DNA of 34,087 nt, taken from a virus. Every line of letters begins with the position of its first letter. The first letter of the stretch is position 1. The stretch covers positions 1 through 34,087 of IMG/VR virus record IMGVR_UViG_3300020214_000002; one strand, written 5' to 3'. Under the pieces are notes generated by a model. It was given only the letters and a program-made list of their open reading frames with translations, had not been told where the DNA came from and made no database searches. Shown piece by piece: positions 5,714-34,087 of this stretch. Position numbers and translations under genes: made by a program.

Positions 5714-5737
5714 TAGCCCTAGCTTTCGCTGGGGCTA
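5714..5737 (-). other. GAAA-capped hairpin across the stop of the membrane-protein gene
   Basis: The arms TAGCCCCAGC and GCTAGGGCTA flank a GAAA loop in the leftward transcript, giving 9 of 10 pairs with one C-A mismatch. The stop codon at 5719 lies in the hairpin. No T run follows, so an mRNA-stability or processing role is more likely than termination. Confidence 0.4.
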
Positions 5738-5952
5738 TCGCTTTTGGAGTCTAGTACTAACCCTTTGGAAGATGTAAACTTTCTGCCAAAGTATAGAGCA
5801 ATATTACCGTAAAACACTTCTAGTATTAGGCCTGTATTGTGGACTAGTTCAGCCATCTCTAACCCTGAAGCTATAATGCATCCTATGAAGCTTATTATAG
5901 ATAAGGTTAGAGAGACTGAAGGTTGACCTGTACTTGGATCTTTAATCCACAT
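5719..5952 (-). CDS. Two-helix small membrane protein, holin-like candidate
   Basis: This 77-residue protein begins MWIKDPSTGQPS. Two hydrophobic segments follow, at about residues 13-30 and 41-57, separated by a short acidic/polar turn. The C-terminus is charged and Ser-rich. Its ATG overlaps the portal stop codon (TAATG), so the two are translationally coupled. Small two-helix proteins with this kind of start are common in phage genomes and are often listed as possible holins. The location in the head operon rather than a lysis cassette leaves other membrane roles open. Confidence 0.72.
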   Translation of the reverse strand: MWIKDPSTGQPSVSLTLSIISFIGCIIASGLEMAELVHNTGLILEVFYGNIALYFGRKFTSSKGLVLDSKSDSPSES

Positions 5953-12699: not shown

Positions 12700-12718
12700 C
12701 TTTTTTGGCAATACATTT

Positions 12719-13315
12719 TTAGGTTTTTTTGTTAGTTTTTTTGGTCGCCACACGAGAAGTTTTACTGTATACATTAGGATCCTTATAAATATAGGCCGAG
12801 TTCTCGTTTTCAACAACCCAGCGTGCTATGTCTATATTGTGGTTTCTTAATTCATGTCGCATCTGTTTAATGTTATTATACTGTGTATCGTTTTCTAAGA
12901 GCTTCTTGAGCTTAGTTTCAGCTCCTCCGTGATAGACTTCTCCACGCTTGATACCTTTAAGAGCGTGGCTGACAGCAGTGTAGTTTATTCCTAACGTAGC
13001 TGCAGCTTCATTATAAGTATAGCCCTGTACTACAACAAGCTGTACTACATTCTTCTGATGCAACGTAAGATTGTTGTTAACATGGATAGCAACTAGATCT
13101 AGAAGACGTTCACGAAGGATTAGGTTGGCTTCTTTAAGATAGTCTCTGTCTTGTTGAGACAACTCAAGTAGATCTAGATCTTCTTCATTTGTTAGAGCAT
13201 TTTCTAAAACTATATGAGGTACATGAACTTCACGCCAGTGAGCTGGATTGTTTTTGTAATCTGACTGGTCATCTAGTCCTTGTAGGTTTGAGATTGGTTT
13301 TCTTTTTCTTGACAC
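12719..13315 (-). CDS. Sigma-70 region-4-like HTH protein
   Basis: This 198-residue protein starts at a GTG at 13315 with AAGGA 11 nt upstream. Residues ~84-125 (LTLHQKNVVQLVVVQGYTYN, then EAAATLGINYTAVSHALKG) match the region-4-like HTH found in sigma factors and many phage regulators. The remainder is helical and charged and ends in a Lys-rich tail. No sigma region 2 is seen. It overlaps the HNH gene before it by 47 nt. It could be a transcription regulator, an RNA-polymerase-associated switch factor, or a small terminase subunit with an unusual HTH. It is the most regulator-like gene in the window. Confidence 0.75.
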   Translation of the reverse strand: MSRKRKPISNLQGLDDQSDYKNNPAHWREVHVPHIVLENALTNEEDLDLLELSQQDRDYLKEANLILRERLLDLVAIHVNNNLTLHQKNVVQLVVVQGYTYNEAAATLGINYTAVSHALKGIKRGEVYHGGAETKLKKLLENDTQYNNIKQMRHELRNHNIDIARWVVENENSAYIYKDPNVYSKTSRVATKKTNKKT

Positions 13316-13646: not shown

Positions 13647-14072
13647 TTAGGCTTCTTCATCCCATTCCCAGTCTAAAAAGTCTTCTTCTGAGTTTTCTGA
13701 TGTGATCAGATTGGAGCCTTGGTTACAATCTGATCTTATTAAGCTTATATTAACCTTATTAACCTTATTAGCCTTATTAGCCTTATTGGGTTCCAAACTC
13801 AGCTTTATAACTCCGTCTTTTAACTCATCTTTGTCCAAAAATTTCTTACATCTCCCTAGCAGGATCCGGAAACTTTTTGTATCAAATCCATGCCGTTCAC
13901 ATACACTTCTCATGGCGGATCTTGTCAAAACACCCTTTGCCTTGGATCGAAAATTAATATACTCTAGCATAAGATACTTGAAGGAATGTAAATTATGTCC
14001 ATTGTAAAGTGCTATAGCTTCGTCCCAAAAAGGACAAGAATAAGTAGTTTGATTTTCTGATTTGTGCGTCAT
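13647..14072 (-). CDS. First leftward gene; acidic-tailed protein, possible regulator or replication factor
   Basis: I choose the ATG at 14072, with GGAG 5 nt upstream, over an upstream in-frame codon at 14105 that falls in a hairpin arm. The 141-residue protein has a helical, basic middle (residues ~48-90, VLTRSAMRSVCERHGFDTKS) that could form a winged helix. An Asn-Lys-Ala/Asn-Lys-Val repeat follows at 96-107. The tail is strongly acidic (EEDFLDWEWDEEA), recalling the acidic C-termini of single-stranded-DNA-binding proteins. As the first gene after the switch region it is probably expressed early. No family was recognised. Confidence 0.65.
   Translation of the reverse strand: MTHKSENQTTYSCPFWDEAIALYNGHNLHSFKYLMLEYINFRSKAKGVLTRSAMRSVCERHGFDTKSFRILLGRCKKFLDKDELKDGVIKLSLEPNKANKANKVNKVNISLIRSDCNQGSNLITSENSEEDFLDWEWDEEA
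13752..13787 (-). repeat. Four 9-bp tandem repeats
   Basis: The units are AACCTTATT twice and AGCCTTATT twice, in the plus reading, encoding alternating Asn-Lys-Val and Asn-Lys-Ala triplets in the first leftward protein. The unit is a multiple of three, so copy-number change would keep the frame and alter only the linker length between the helical domain and the acidic tail. Confidence 0.85.
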
Positions 14073-14096
14073 AAAAACTCCATTTGTTAAATAAAA

Positions 14097-14184
14097 AGAG
14101 ATCACTTCCTATAGTACCAGGCTAAATGGTGATCAGTTCGGGTTGATCACCACTCGCAGGCCCGAACTACAAGGAGTGATCTCT
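14097..14184. other. Structured switch element: nested and interleaved inverted repeats, five GATC sites
   Basis: The outer arms are 14097-14110 and 14172-14184 (GATCACTTCCT against AGGAGTGATC, one bulged base). Inside, TGGTGATCA (14127-14135) pairs with TGATCACCA (14144-14152), and GTTCGGG (14136-14142) pairs with CCCGAAC (14161-14167). The two inner pairs are interleaved with loops of 0, 1 and 8 nt, the geometry of an H-type pseudoknot in plus-strand RNA. Read leftward, the outer stem is followed by TTTTTATTT, as in an intrinsic terminator. GATC occurs five times between 14100 and 14193. It lies in the only large intergenic region, where transcription diverges. Candidate roles are terminator/attenuator, replication origin or regulatory RNA. 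Confidence 0.75.
14111..14119 (-). promoter_or_regulatory. Possible leftward extended -10 promoter inside the structured element
   Basis: In the leftward reading TGGTACTAT fits TGn plus a -10-like hexamer (4 of 6). No good -35 is seen. A start around 14104 would give a leader of about 32 nt to the ATG at 14072 and would contain only one arm of the outer stem, so it would escape the terminator-like hairpin. Confidence 0.3.
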
Positions 14185-14227
14185 CTTAAGATCAAGAATA
14201 GCAATACATTTTAAATTGTCGTGTGTG

Positions 14228-14255
14228 TGGACTTATAAAAACTACATACTATAGT
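14228..14255 (+). promoter_or_regulatory. Candidate rightward promoter for the mini-gene island
   Basis: TGGACT, 16 bp, then TATAGT gives 4 of 6 and 5 of 6 matches to the sigma-70 hexamers. The region is AT-rich and is followed by the leader ATAACAAGTGGAGA and the first rightward ATG at 14289. The sequence TACTATAG occurs here and, inverted, at 14109-14116 in front of the leftward genes. Confidence 0.4.
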
Positions 14256-14288
14256 ATAAACATAACAAGTGGAGAAAGAAAAGCTACT

Positions 14289-14573
14289 ATGATTATTTTG
14301 GTGCTGTTGCTAATAATATTTATTTTGCCACACTGGTTTGATACAGGCAATGTGATCATATGGGACCTCAGGGATGATGAGACTTTTTTTGCATATTGGG
14401 AACGAGAAAGAGCGTTGCTGTGTCCATGGACAGTTAAGACGAAGGAACGTCCAGCAGTCTCAGTAGATGATGCTCTTGCATGGGGGGCAGCTATTTCAGA
14501 TGGCATAGAACAAGATGAAGAGTGGTGGCAAGAGTGCAAGAAAGATTCTGACACTGCTAGTATTAAGTACTAG
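14289..14573 (+). CDS. Rightward small membrane protein
   Basis: 94 residues from the ATG at 14289. Residues 1-14 (MIILVLLLIIFILP) form a strongly hydrophobic N-terminal anchor or uncleaved signal. An acidic, Trp-rich domain follows (EEWW at 77-80, two Cys), probably outside or on the membrane surface. GGAG lies 14 nt upstream, farther than usual; the same ATAACAAGTGGAGA leader precedes the next gene at normal spacing. A longer frame from a GTG at 14223 would run through the promoter and is unlikely. Function is unknown; lysis, superinfection exclusion or host-membrane modification are possible. Confidence 0.65.
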   Translation: MIILVLLLIIFILPHWFDTGNVIIWDLRDDETFFAYWERERALLCPWTVKTKERPAVSVDDALAWGAAISDGIEQDEEWWQECKKDSDTASIKY

Positions 14574-14605
14574 CCTTCCTTAGCTATAACAAGTGGAGAG
14601 AAGAT

Positions 14606-14854
14606 ATGAAAAAGATAAAGCTAGCAGATAGTTCTAACATTAGGTCGGCATTCTATTGTACAGATCTCAGAACTCTAACTGTAGAGTTTCAGGGGGGTGG
14701 CGTCTATCATTACTTTAACGTTGGTATTGACCAAGTGGTTGCTTGGCAGAAAGTAAGCAAGGCTGGCGGTAGTGTTGGTTCTTGGTTTTGCAAGAATATC
14801 AAAGGTAAGTATGCTTACGAAGCTGTAGTAAAACGTCTCAAGAAGATATCATAA
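14606..14854 (+). CDS. KTSC-domain protein
   Basis: An 82-residue protein that is essentially one KTSC domain. SSNIRSAFYCTDLRTLTVEF at residues 9-28 is the characteristic opening, followed by GGVYHYFNVG (31-40), a helix, then AGGSVGSWFCKNIKGKY (53-69). KTSC domains are small and widespread in phages and bacteria, sometimes fused to lysyl-tRNA synthetase-like or nucleic-acid-linked proteins; their biochemical role is not established. GGAG lies 7 nt before the ATG within a 14-base leader repeated from the previous gene. The frame ends 9 nt before the next gene. Confidence 0.85.
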   Translation: MKKIKLADSSNIRSAFYCTDLRTLTVEFQGGGVYHYFNVGIDQVVAWQKVSKAGGSVGSWFCKNIKGKYAYEAVVKRLKKIS

Positions 14855-14863
14855 GGAGAGAAT

Positions 14864-14968
14864 ATGTTACTTGCCATCATTTTTGGTATAATTGTGTTTA
14901 TATGTTATGATCCCAATTACAAGCCTAAATGCAACTGCTGTTGCAGCTGTGATTGTAAAAAGAACTAA
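14864..14968 (+). CDS. 34-residue cysteine-rich membrane peptide
   Basis: AAGGAG lies 7 nt before the ATG, a strong reason to accept so short a gene. Residues 2-14 are hydrophobic (LLAIIFGIIVFIC). The tail has six Cys among residues 23-31 (KCNCCCSCDCKKN), giving seven Cys in 34 residues. A membrane anchor with a cytoplasmic or external metal-binding or palmitoyl-like Cys cluster would fit. Its stop overlaps the stop of the converging gene at 14965 by 4 nt. I know of no matching family; a lysis or toxin-like role is only a possibility. Confidence 0.6.
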   Translation: MLLAIIFGIIVFICYDPNYKPKCNCCCSCDCKKN

Positions 14969-18869: not shown

Positions 18870-20777
18870 TTATGCTCCTTTAACTAGTTGGTATTTAAGA
18901 GCAGCTAATAGAACGCCTTGAAGACTTTGTGGATCATAACCCTTCATTCCATTTGGAAGCGTTCTGGAGATAATCTTACCAACCTTTGTATTTTCAATAT
19001 CTTGCATCATAAAGCCTACTTTTGATCCAGTTCCGTACTGTTCTGATAGGTATTCAAAAGCTTTAGGATTCACTGCATCTAAGAACTCTTTGATATCACC
19101 AGCACTTAGATCTTCAACGTTGTGTTTCAATCTTGCATCAGATGCTGCTGCGCCAGCTGCTACTGGAGCTGCTGTAGCTGCACCTGCACCAGTAGCGGCT
19201 CCAGCACCACCAGCTGTTGTTGTTGCGGCTGGTGCAGCGGCCTGACCTAGTTTAGCAGCCCCCATTTCAGATCCGCCTGAAATTAAACCACCTTTAAGTT
19301 TTTGTTGATAGTCAACAGCACTAGCTTGTGCTTGTTGGTAGCTACCAAGAGTTCCTTGAGCAACACCTGCTTGCTGAGCATTCTGCCCCATCTGCATCCC
19401 AAGAAGTTGTGTAGGCATTTGACCTGACCAGTACTGTTGAGCTCCAAGAGTAGCGCCCATTTGATTCTGATATGCCTGTGCTATTGCTTGGTTCATTTGT
19501 TGTTGATACTGAGCACTAGCCATGTTAGCTTGCTGATCTAAACCAGCTTGGTATTGTGCTGCTTGAATTTGATTACCTACGTTAAACTGATTGGTTTGGG
19601 TTGCCATTTGTGCATTAGCTAATGCTGCAGCTTGTAAATACTGAGCATTTGTAAGTTGTTGCTGAGTTCCAAACCCGTACTGAGCCATTGCCATTTGTGC
19701 TGCAAGTTGAGCTTGTGTTTGTGCTCCTTGCAACTGACCTTGATAACCAGCCAATCCTGCTTGCTGTAAAAGTTGTGCTTGAGCCAAAGCTGTTTGTTGT
19801 TGCTGAGCACTTTGTTGTAAGTTTGCAGCTTGTTGAAATCCTGCACCAGTAAGTCCGTACTGAGCAGCTATTTGTTGATTAGCCAAAGCCGCTTGTTGAG
19901 ACATTTGTGCTTGTTGCAACTGTGGATTATAAGCTTGTTGAAAGCTTTGTGCTTGCTGTGCAATTGCTGCCTGCGCAAGAGCTTGTTGTCCTGCTAGGCT
20001 TTGTTGGAACTGTTGAGTAGCCTGTTGGCCACCTATTGCTTGAGCTGCTTGAGCTTGTTGTGCCATTGCTGCTCGTGCTATTGCAGGGTTATAAGCACCT
20101 CTTTGTGAAGCTGCTTGTGATGCGATTGCTTGTTGAGCTTGTTGTTGTTGAAGTTGTGTAGCTTGGAGTTGTTGTGCACCACTAGGACCTTGAGCTAAAC
20201 CTGCAAGACCTGTTAGGGCTTGTGCTCCAGCTTGTTGTGCACCAAGTGCAGTTTGTGTCGATTGTGTTGCAAGATCTTGAAGACCTTGTCCAAGACTTGC
20301 AGGCGCTACTTCTGGAGCAGCCTCAGTAACGGCCGCCTGTACCTGAGGTATACTAGCAATTTGAGCAGCTTCTGGGCTGCTTGGATTTGTGTAAAGCTGA
20401 GCCATTTGCTGTGGACTTAATCCAGAAGCATCGCCCACCTTGGCTGCCGTCATTAACTGAACTGCGGCGTCTGGTGTTGTTTTGGTATAATCTACATTTG
20501 CAGCAACGGCTACGGCTGGGACTAGTGCATCTATTGCTTGCTTACTTAGGCCTGTTATTGTACCAAGAGAAGTTTGAAGTTGGTCTGCAAGTTCTTTAGT
20601 CTTTGCAGCCCATTCTTCTTTAGTGATCATTCCTTTTTTGAACTGATCTTGGATCTCATCACCGCGGGCACTAATTGCTCTTGCTGCATCGTTAGCAGCA
20701 TTGTGAACAATTGGGTCCTTAGTAGCTAGTTTGTCAAGCCACTGCCCACCTTCCACGCCTTTAAATGGATTAAACAT
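18870..20777 (-). CDS. Gln/Ala-rich virion protein with S74-like chaperone domain
   Basis: 635 residues. A normal N-terminal region (1-130) leads into a very long low-complexity region rich in Gln and Ala (about 160-500), predicted helical and probably elongated. From residue 546 the last 90 residues resemble the intramolecular chaperone (peptidase S74) domain: SDARLKHNV with the Ser-Asp junction, FLDAVNPKAFEYLSEQYG, then GFMMQDIEN and LLAALKYQL. In fibres this domain aids trimer folding and cuts itself off at Ser-Asp. Similar short S74-like ends occur on non-fibre proteins of marine phages. AAGGAG precedes the ATG. Confidence 0.78.
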   Translation of the reverse strand: MFNPFKGVEGGQWLDKLATKDPIVHNAANDAARAISARGDEIQDQFKKGMITKEEWAAKTKELADQLQTSLGTITGLSKQAIDALVPAVAVAANVDYTKTTPDAAVQLMTAAKVGDASGLSPQQMAQLYTNPSSPEAAQIASIPQVQAAVTEAAPEVAPASLGQGLQDLATQSTQTALGAQQAGAQALTGLAGLAQGPSGAQQLQATQLQQQQAQQAIASQAASQRGAYNPAIARAAMAQQAQAAQAIGGQQATQQFQQSLAGQQALAQAAIAQQAQSFQQAYNPQLQQAQMSQQAALANQQIAAQYGLTGAGFQQAANLQQSAQQQQTALAQAQLLQQAGLAGYQGQLQGAQTQAQLAAQMAMAQYGFGTQQQLTNAQYLQAAALANAQMATQTNQFNVGNQIQAAQYQAGLDQQANMASAQYQQQMNQAIAQAYQNQMGATLGAQQYWSGQMPTQLLGMQMGQNAQQAGVAQGTLGSYQQAQASAVDYQQKLKGGLISGGSEMGAAKLGQAAAPAATTTAGGAGAATGAGAATAAPVAAGAAASDARLKHNVEDLSAGDIKEFLDAVNPKAFEYLSEQYGTGSKVGFMMQDIENTKVGKIISRTLPNGMKGYDPQSLQGVLLAALKYQLVKGA

Positions 20778-31770: not shown

Positions 31771-34087
31771 TTATGCAAACACTGTATTAGCACCACCGTA
31801 CCAAGTGCCACCTGCGTATAAGAAAGTCGCTATATCCACTCTACTTGCTAGAGTACTCCAACTAGGTTCTGTACCACCTGCCCACTTAATAGTAGAACCC
31901 CAAGCTCTTGTACGTCCACCAGTACCATCTTGTATCATGATAAGTACATAACTTGCGCCATCTATTGGATTGCTAAAGCTTATTGTAGTGTTTGCAGTAA
32001 GTGTGGTTTGTTGTACGTTACCATTGTTAAAGTCTATAGTAATACTAGTACTTGAGTTACCTGCATCATAGAATTCACTAGCTACCTGACCACCAGTAAC
32101 TATATTCTTAACCGCAGCAATACCACCACTAGATTTAAGAGCTCCAGTAGTTGAGCTAGTGCTATCTGTTGTGTTAGTAGTAGCAAGAGTACTTGTTGTA
32201 GATACTGCAGTACCACTATCTGTAATACTAGAATCTGCAGCTGTAGTAGAAGCGGACCATTTCATTATGGTATTTGTGGTACCAGATCCTGAAATACCTC
32301 CACCGCCGCTTGCCGTTGCCCAGCTTAGTGTGCCAGAACCATCGGTGCTTAGTACTTGACCATTTGTACCATCTGCACTTGGAAGAGTCCAAGTAACATC
32401 CGCAGTAATACTATCTGCAGCCTTAAAGGCTACAAAGTTAGTACCATTTGCTGCTAGTTCTGTGAATTGTATTCTACCACCTTGACCAGCACTAGTTCCA
32501 ATTGGGCCAAGAGTTAGGGTACCCGACATCGTATCTCCAGCCTTATTAACCGGAGTATAACCTAATGCTGCTTGTTTTCCGTTGAAAGTGTTCCAGTCTG
32601 TTGAACTTAAGTAGCCATCTGTAGTTGTATTTGCCTGTGTTATTGTTATGTTAGGTGTACTACCACCACTAGAAGCTAAAGGTGCGCTTGCTGTTACACT
32701 TGTAACCGTACCTCCGCCACCTCCTGAAGACCAGCTGAGTACACCAGAACCATTGGTGCTAAGTACCTGTCCTGATGTTCCGTCAGCATCGGGAAGAGTC
32801 CAAGTTACGCTAGACACAATACTGTCAGCAGCTCTAAATGCTACATAGTTAGTACCATTGGCTGCTAGTTCAGTTAGTTTTACAATGCCTCCGTCACCTG
32901 CACTTGTGCCAACTGGACCAAGTGTCAAGGCACCACTCATAGTGTCACCAGCTTTATTAACTGGAGTATAGCCTAATGCTGCTTGTTTACTATCAAAAGC
33001 AGCCCAGTCTGTAGAGCTTAAATAGCCACTTGCAAGTGCAGTTGCTGCACCCATACTAATAACACCGGTAGAGTTGTCATATGCTACTGGAGAGGTGGCT
33101 GATAAGGCAAGTCTTGCGCGAGTATCTGTATAATATAAGTTGGTATTTTCTGTGACAGCTAGAGTGTCAAGTGTTTGGAAGCTCTTGTCTCCGCGCCAGT
33201 ATTGAGATGTAGTACCTGCCGTAATTGCTGGCTCTTTGGAGTTGAATGTTGACCAATCTGTACTAGATAAGTAACCACTTGTACTCACAGTTGCCTGAGC
33301 AATTGACAAAGTTCTGTTTGTACTTAGGTCTCCACCACCGCTTAGAGGGCTAGTAGTTGAGATGGTAGTTGTGCTATTAGCAGGAGTAAAGCCTAGAGCA
33401 TTCTGCTTAGCGTTAAATGTTGACCAGTCTGTTGAACTTAAAAAGCCATCTACTAAACTAGTTGCTTGTGGCATCGCCAGTGTAAATGAACTACCACTAG
33501 CTCCACCTGTAAGAGGACTTGTAGTGTTAATAGTAACGCTACTTATTTTACTGTTAAAGGTAGACCAATCTGTACTAGATAAGTAACCATCCGACCCTGC
33601 ACTAGCTTGAGATATGCTTAGTGTTCTGTCTGCTGACAGATCACCTCCTCCGCTAAGTGGAGCAGATGTGTTTATAGCACGTGAGTTGGCTAAGAGAGTA
33701 CCGCTAATAGGTAAGGTAACATTCGTAGTACCACTAGTTGTAAATGTAAGATTATTACTTCCATACGTGAGGGTGCCTGCATTGTTAACTCCTGTACCAC
33801 CATTTGTAGATGGAAGTAAGAAACCACTTGCTAGGTCGCTTGTAGCTATGCTAGAAGCGAGGTTTAGCTTACTATAAGCAATTGCTGCAGTTGTTGATAT
33901 ATCTGCATTTACGATGCTATTACTTAAAGCTAGCTTGCTATAAGCAATGGCTGCTGAAGCATTTACTTGAGTATTAGTTATGCCACCTGACTTAACATAA
34001 AGCTGATTGCTTCCATTGGTTGCTATAGTACTATCGTCATAGTTAACGTTTATTGTATTACCAAGCAAGCTTAGACCATCACCTACA
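31771..34087 (-). CDS. Giant tail fibre, C-terminal 729 codons (split by the contig ends)
   Basis: This is the continuation of the gene that starts at 2088. The Met codon at 34068 is internal: it sits in the duplicated end and is in phase with the upstream half. Five more D-G-Y/F-L-S-S-T-D-W units are present, giving nine in the protein. A 411-bp module, containing GYTPVNKAGDTMSG and TELAANGTN, is tandemly duplicated at about 32290-33000. The last ~110 residues (SITIDFNNGN, TISFSNP, then a short aromatic tip, FLYAGGTWYGG) look like the conserved distal module of many phage fibres. The next gene begins 11 nt downstream. The likely role is receptor recognition. Confidence 0.88.
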   Translation of the reverse strand, partial: VGDGLSLLGNTINVNYDDSTIATNGSNQLYVKSGGITNTQVNASAAIAYSKLALSNSIVNADISTTAAIAYSKLNLASSIATSDLASGFLLPSTNGGTGVNNAGTLTYGSNNLTFTTSGTTNVTLPISGTLLANSRAINTSAPLSGGGDLSADRTLSISQASAGSDGYLSSTDWSTFNSKISSVTINTTSPLTGGASGSSFTLAMPQATSLVDGFLSSTDWSTFNAKQNALGFTPANSTTTISTTSPLSGGGDLSTNRTLSIAQATVSTSGYLSSTDWSTFNSKEPAITAGTTSQYWRGDKSFQTLDTLAVTENTNLYYTDTRARLALSATSPVAYDNSTGVISMGAATALASGYLSSTDWAAFDSKQAALGYTPVNKAGDTMSGALTLGPVGTSAGDGGIVKLTELAANGTNYVAFRAADSIVSSVTWTLPDADGTSGQVLSTNGSGVLSWSSGGGGGTVTSVTASAPLASSGGSTPNITITQANTTTDGYLSSTDWNTFNGKQAALGYTPVNKAGDTMSGTLTLGPIGTSAGQGGRIQFTELAANGTNFVAFKAADSITADVTWTLPSADGTNGQVLSTDGSGTLSWATASGGGGISGSGTTNTIMKWSASTTAADSSITDSGTAVSTTSTLATTNTTDSTSSTTGALKSSGGIAAVKNIVTGGQVASEFYDAGNSSTSITIDFNNGNVQQTTLTANTTISFSNPIDGASYVLIMIQDGTGGRTRAWGSTIKWAGGTEPSWSTLASRVDIATFLYAGGTWYGGANTVFA
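32290..33000 (-). repeat. Tandem 411-bp module duplication inside the fibre gene
   Basis: Equivalent positions in two neighbouring modules (the GGAGTATA of the GYTPVN segment at 32552 and 32963) lie exactly 411 bp, or 137 codons, apart. Both copies encode the same order: PVNKAGDTMSG, LTLGP(V/I)GTSAG, TELAANGTN, a W-T-L-P segment, GQVLST and a Gly-rich linker. The copies have diverged at many third positions and at some residues. A third, shorter relative of the GYTPVN segment lies near 707-750. In-frame tandem duplication lengthens a fibre without breaking it. Confidence 0.8.
33961..34087. repeat. Terminal direct repeat, right copy (circular closure)
   Basis: This is the second copy of the 127-base terminal overlap, identical to 1-127. 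When the sequence is closed into a circle one copy should be removed. Confidence 0.93.

Follow-up and report, generated by a model that had tools for sequence, protein, structure and literature searches.

In phage lambda, an RNase III hairpin in the N leader precedes the first gene transcribed leftward. The element described here, located at positions 14094-14187 of an uncultured phage genome, likewise presents a large hairpin a short way ahead of the ribosome site that serves the first leftward gene, but differs from the lambda N leader in having a U-tract. With Rho-independent terminators and leader attenuators it shares a stable hairpin, a U-rich tract immediately after it and a position ahead of the first gene of an operon; unlike them, it spans about 90 nt rather than forming a compact stem-loop, and its loop is complementary to one of its arms. 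Arrays of iterons or operators in the origins and control regions of phages, as in the distant relative G014, resemble it in repeating a short motif in both orientations within a divergent region, whereas the element holds only four copies, within one near-continuous palindrome. Phage P4 immunity involves the CI RNA and premature termination in a leader before the replication genes (PMC4825925). As in P4, an operon of this phage could in principle be controlled by termination in an untranslated leader, with a role for short segments that are complementary. The two differ in that here neither a separate CI-like RNA nor a second target was found, there is no sequence match, and the first gene is not a known replication gene; when the element region was compared with the rest of the genome, the longest match was 14 nt and corresponded to the ribosome-site block. 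P4 immunity is the nearest documented early-terminating phage leader that we found, and we take the relation as one of likeness, not of membership.

The window, that is, the whole stretch of 34,087 nt analysed, is a circular assembly with an exact 127-bp overlap between its ends (1-127 and 33961-34087) and a unit length of 33,960 bp. As far as the assembly goes, the source genome is circular or permuted, and the circle assumed by an earlier sequence-only reading is borne out at this level. The ORFs truncated at the two ends of the record are probably joined across the overlap into one tail-fibre-like gene. All genes run leftward except two small ones, which confirmed that the element sits in the sole real divergent gap. 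The features of the region are as follows:

13647-14072, leftward: first leftward gene, 141 aa, with ATG at 14072 and GGAG at 14078-14081
14088-14097, leftward: U-rich tract after the stem, reading TTTTTATTT leftward, U-tract score 4.55
14094-14187, leftward: long imperfect hairpin in the leftward RNA, with an outer stem of about 27 pairs, a 12-pair inner stem and an 8-nt loop
14094-14115 and 14166-14187: outer arms, 22 nt, 82% complementary, including 10 bp of perfect pairing (AGAGATCACT/AGTGATCTCT)
14127-14135 and 14144-14152 (span 14127-14152): inner arms B and B' (TGGTGATCA/TGATCACCA), 9 bp perfect, 8-nt loop
14135-14142 and 14161-14168: interleaved arms A and A' (AGTTCGGG/CCCGAACT), 8 bp perfect
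14096-14185: candidate array of GTGATC-core copies, at 14100 (minus), 14129 (plus), 14145 (minus) and 14176 (plus)
14195-14200, leftward: further candidate promoter for leftward transcription, with extended -10 TGCTATTCT, rank 216
14247-14256, both strands: palindromic -10-like TACTATAGTA, the best promoter candidates of the region by consensus scores only
14289-14573, rightward: first rightward gene, encoding a small protein with a hydrophobic N-terminus
14606-14854, rightward: second rightward gene, encoding a KTSC-domain protein (PF13619, 46 bits)

A family search with the product of the first leftward gene gave no match, and its structure prediction was too poor for use (pLDDT 41). At 13735-13787 this gene contains five to six 9-bp tandem repeats (consensus CTTATTAAC) encoding a repeated NKANKANKVNKVN stretch, which could be origin iterons as in lambda O or just a protein repeat. 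An identical 14-bp block, ATAACAAGTGGAGA, lies ahead of both rightward genes (14262-14275 and 14586-14599) and probably represents their ribosome sites.

An inverted-repeat search recovered the outer, B and A arm pairs, and the succession (B, A, B', A') and spacing (0, 1 and 8 nt) of the inner arms agreed with those given by the sequence-only reading. Arm A has one base in common with B, and without that base 7 bp are left (GTTCGGG/CCCGAAC). The loop is thereby complementary to an arm (A/A'), which offers an alternative pairing; in random placements within this genome, an 8-nt loop had at least 7 complementary bases in such flanks in 0.9% of cases, and 8 complementary bases in 0.12%. The leftward RNA (14085-14200) folded at -52.4 kcal/mol (z -7.75, 200 shuffles) into one nested hairpin of about 90 nt that places the A' arm within the outer stem, and the plus-strand RNA of the element folded more weakly, at -37.8 kcal/mol (z -4.83, 200 shuffles). 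On either strand none of the 200 shuffles folded as well, in agreement with the claim that the stems exceed chance. A strand gap this large was observed in 8% of simulated imperfect palindromes. When the arms were aligned with each other as plain DNA, six transitions were of the kind that yields G-U pairs in leftward RNA, and three favoured the plus strand (two of these three in the loop); since C-to-T change on the leftward strand could yield the same bias, it constitutes weak evidence regarding the strand. Stepwise folding showed that the hairpin zips up as the leftward RNA emerges. Among 100-nt folds it was the strongest non-coding one of the genome, surpassed only by an Ala-rich coding repeat at 19151. 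There, the very stable plus-strand fold (19141-19260) is antisense to the repeat, in a gene with an S74-peptidase domain. Comparison of the element with Rfam returned nothing above the gathering threshold, only chance-level matches to miRNA precursors (E about 4).

Terminators were scanned on both strands of the whole genome as a hairpin plus U-tract with the d'Aubenton-Carafa formula, allowing hairpins of up to 100 nt. The element scored 18.5, by a formula made for compact E. coli terminators that may not suit the host, and no other site on either strand scored above 0. A standard compact-terminator scan (loop of 3-8 nt, up to 20 pairs) gave no terminator in the region, because its loop limit excludes such a long hairpin. 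As in intrinsic terminators, a U-rich tract comes directly after a stable hairpin, the leftward run TTTTTATTT having already been pointed out in the sequence-only reading; the compact stem and short loop that are typical of that class, though not strictly defining, are replaced here by a hairpin of 86-94 nt, far above typical terminator length, and for this reason we term the element terminator-like only. The sequence-only reading is thus partly supported: its idea of a transcription switch or terminator gains support on the leftward strand (hairpin, U-tract and sole positive score), and its H-type pseudoknot in plus-strand RNA does not.

The hairpin ends about 20 nt ahead of the ribosome site (GGAG) and the ATG of the first leftward gene. 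By consensus scoring, the top leftward candidate promoters, all weak matches, lie upstream of the hairpin: the TACTATAGTA candidates ranked 90 and 103 among about 68,000 positions, and RNA from the TGCTATTCT candidate would begin near the foot of the hairpin. If the leftward candidates at 14247-14256 or 14200 are real, the hairpin belongs to the 5' leader of the operon. We propose, at roughly even confidence, that the element is a large hairpin of the intrinsic-terminator type which stands at the head of the main operon and acts on transcription running leftward; its service as a leader attenuator is a more tentative suggestion. According to this model, leftward transcription would start upstream, either close to the palindromic -10 at 14247-14256 or at 14200, and with the hairpin in the 5' leader, polymerase would have to pass it in order to express the operon. 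An attenuator would keep the operon silent until some factor of phage or host origin lets polymerase through; alternatively, refolding of the loop, A with A', would let polymerase read on. The same hairpin could also stop leftward transcripts that have circled the genome. The element is of a known type, unusual in its size and position. Against a terminator stands the consideration that an efficient stop at this place would silence the entire leftward operon unless it were conditional, and no antiterminator was identified. Were the model correct, one terminator in the leader might be where an uncultured phage lineage that has no recognised regulators governs its main block of genes, and this would offer a simple spot at which to seek timing or lysis-lysogeny control in the relatives retrieved here; if it is merely a terminator, the element is an ordinary one. 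A leader-peptide attenuator was discarded, as inspection by eye revealed just one 5-codon frame, without a ribosome site.

Other readings assign the element to RNA in different ways. The H-type pseudoknot in plus-strand RNA originally proposed can draw on the interleaved order B, A, B', A' with perfect stems, on stacking energies of -17.7 and -14.5 kcal/mol that make it energetically thinkable on the plus strand, and on a plus-strand candidate promoter (-10 at 14110) whose RNA would include the element. It requires, however, a plus transcript over the element, and the best plus-strand candidate promoter, slightly stronger than the former (-10 at 14250), lies downstream. In addition, L1 is 0 nt on this strand, and a loop of zero length across a stem of 7-8 bp would require at least one pair to open; a pseudoknot in the leftward RNA would likewise have no loop nucleotides with which to cross 8 bp. 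Nested folding of both strands favoured the leftward nested hairpin, which uses A', by a wide gap (-52.4 against -37.8 kcal/mol), and we regard the plus-strand pseudoknot as highly improbable. An RNA switch in the leader, in which A-A' pairing during transcription would compete with the long terminator hairpin and decide on transcription of the operon, possibly helped by an antisense RNA in the manner of P4, is improbable. It is also rather unlikely that the element is a leader hairpin that RNase III cuts or that shields the mRNA 5' end, setting stability or translation with no termination. Such a role would fit the extended double-stranded stem some 20 nt ahead of a good ribosome site, a candidate promoter whose RNA would begin where the stem has its foot, and the RNase III hairpin site known from the lambda N leader; it nevertheless neither needs nor explains the U-rich tract or the element's leading terminator score. 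In a narrower form of our preferred explanation, the hairpin would be a circle-closing terminator only, ending leftward transcripts that arrive from 14965, with no leader and with the next leftward promoter inside the left arm. Terminator scans of 14855-14964 detected no terminator-like site, as this form would have it, and its candidate extended -10, TGGTACTAT, was found at 14118-14110; this candidate is, however, missing from the 15 best promoter scores of the region, and we consider a purely circle-closing role unlikely.

A reading at the level of DNA has a somewhat better claim, although we hold it to be possible rather than probable: four GTGATC-core sites in alternating orientation would bind a phage protein (a repressor or a replication initiator) that controls the divergent promoters or an origin. 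GTGATC is common to the outer arms (AGTGATCTCT) and the inner arms (TGGTGATCA), and where both arm pairs are built of the same motif any two opposed copies resemble complementary arms. In G014, a distant relative of 38,036 bp that was likewise circularly assembled with a 127-bp end overlap, 12 of the 13 copies of GTGACAGA lie in both orientations in its sole divergent region, beside a VapE-like helicase gene (the array corresponds to L127:16060-16380), which makes an origin or operator in the divergent gap plausible; in our phage the adjacent first gene holds the 9-bp tandem repeats. Four of the 16 genomic copies of GTGATC fall within 82 bp, which is by itself not exceptional among 6-mers (about 0.3 by hand estimate after correction for the 6-mers tested), and the rank of the four copies is partly by construction, the motif model having been built from them. 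The binding-site reading leaves the pairing between sites, the U-tract and the better leftward fold unexplained, and no DNA-binding protein was identified for it. An array and a terminator can coexist: G014 has a separate compact leftward terminator-like hairpin with a U-tract at 34926, some 50 nt ahead of where the longest ORF of the VapE-like helicase starts. That hairpin also speaks for the terminator reading of our element, less so in that it lies inside a possible 75-aa ORF. Two further candidates were rejected, namely a P1-pac-like cluster of Dam sites (five GATC in 90 bp, equally tight in 3% of random placements, with no other support) and a T7-like promoter (ACTATAGG, present just once).

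A homologous element was sought in relatives and none was found. Neither a DNA search of phage records with the source phage, nor queries of IMG/VR with TerL, MCP and the first gene for close relatives, nor a search of genome contigs, nor DNA patterns of the element and of TerL gave a match. A portal-based search retrieved 80 contigs of a podovirus-like family (portal identity 26-35%) that share the virion gene order of the source phage, and in TerL and portal alignments the relatives were mostly 26-35% identical. The first leftward gene had no match in the 17 relative records searched, and the relatives from the TerL and portal alignments gave no match to the sigma-like gene. The closest ones, L082 and L069, reached 59% and 46% identity only in a single small virion-block gene. 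Apparent terminators were observed in two divergent gaps: that of G004 follows a small Lys/Ala-rich ORF and was set aside as probably an ordinary gene end, and that of G001 is of uncertain status.

Some further sequence features were recorded. Close to the major capsid gene, a leftward hairpin AGGAGGGGA...TTCCCCTCCT (2546-2604) lies between two genes; it was unscored as a terminator because it has no U-tract. The 12-mer GCAATACATTTT (leftward AAAATGTATTGC) occurs at 14201-14212, in the gap of the element, and at 12708-12719, on the border of a different leftward intergenic gap, possibly as a promoter or regulatory motif in common, or by chance. In the relatives G010 (5727-5887) and G009 (2644-2804), six of the seven genomic copies of CCCGGGAC cluster within 160 bp, four one way and two opposite, as another possible binding-site array.
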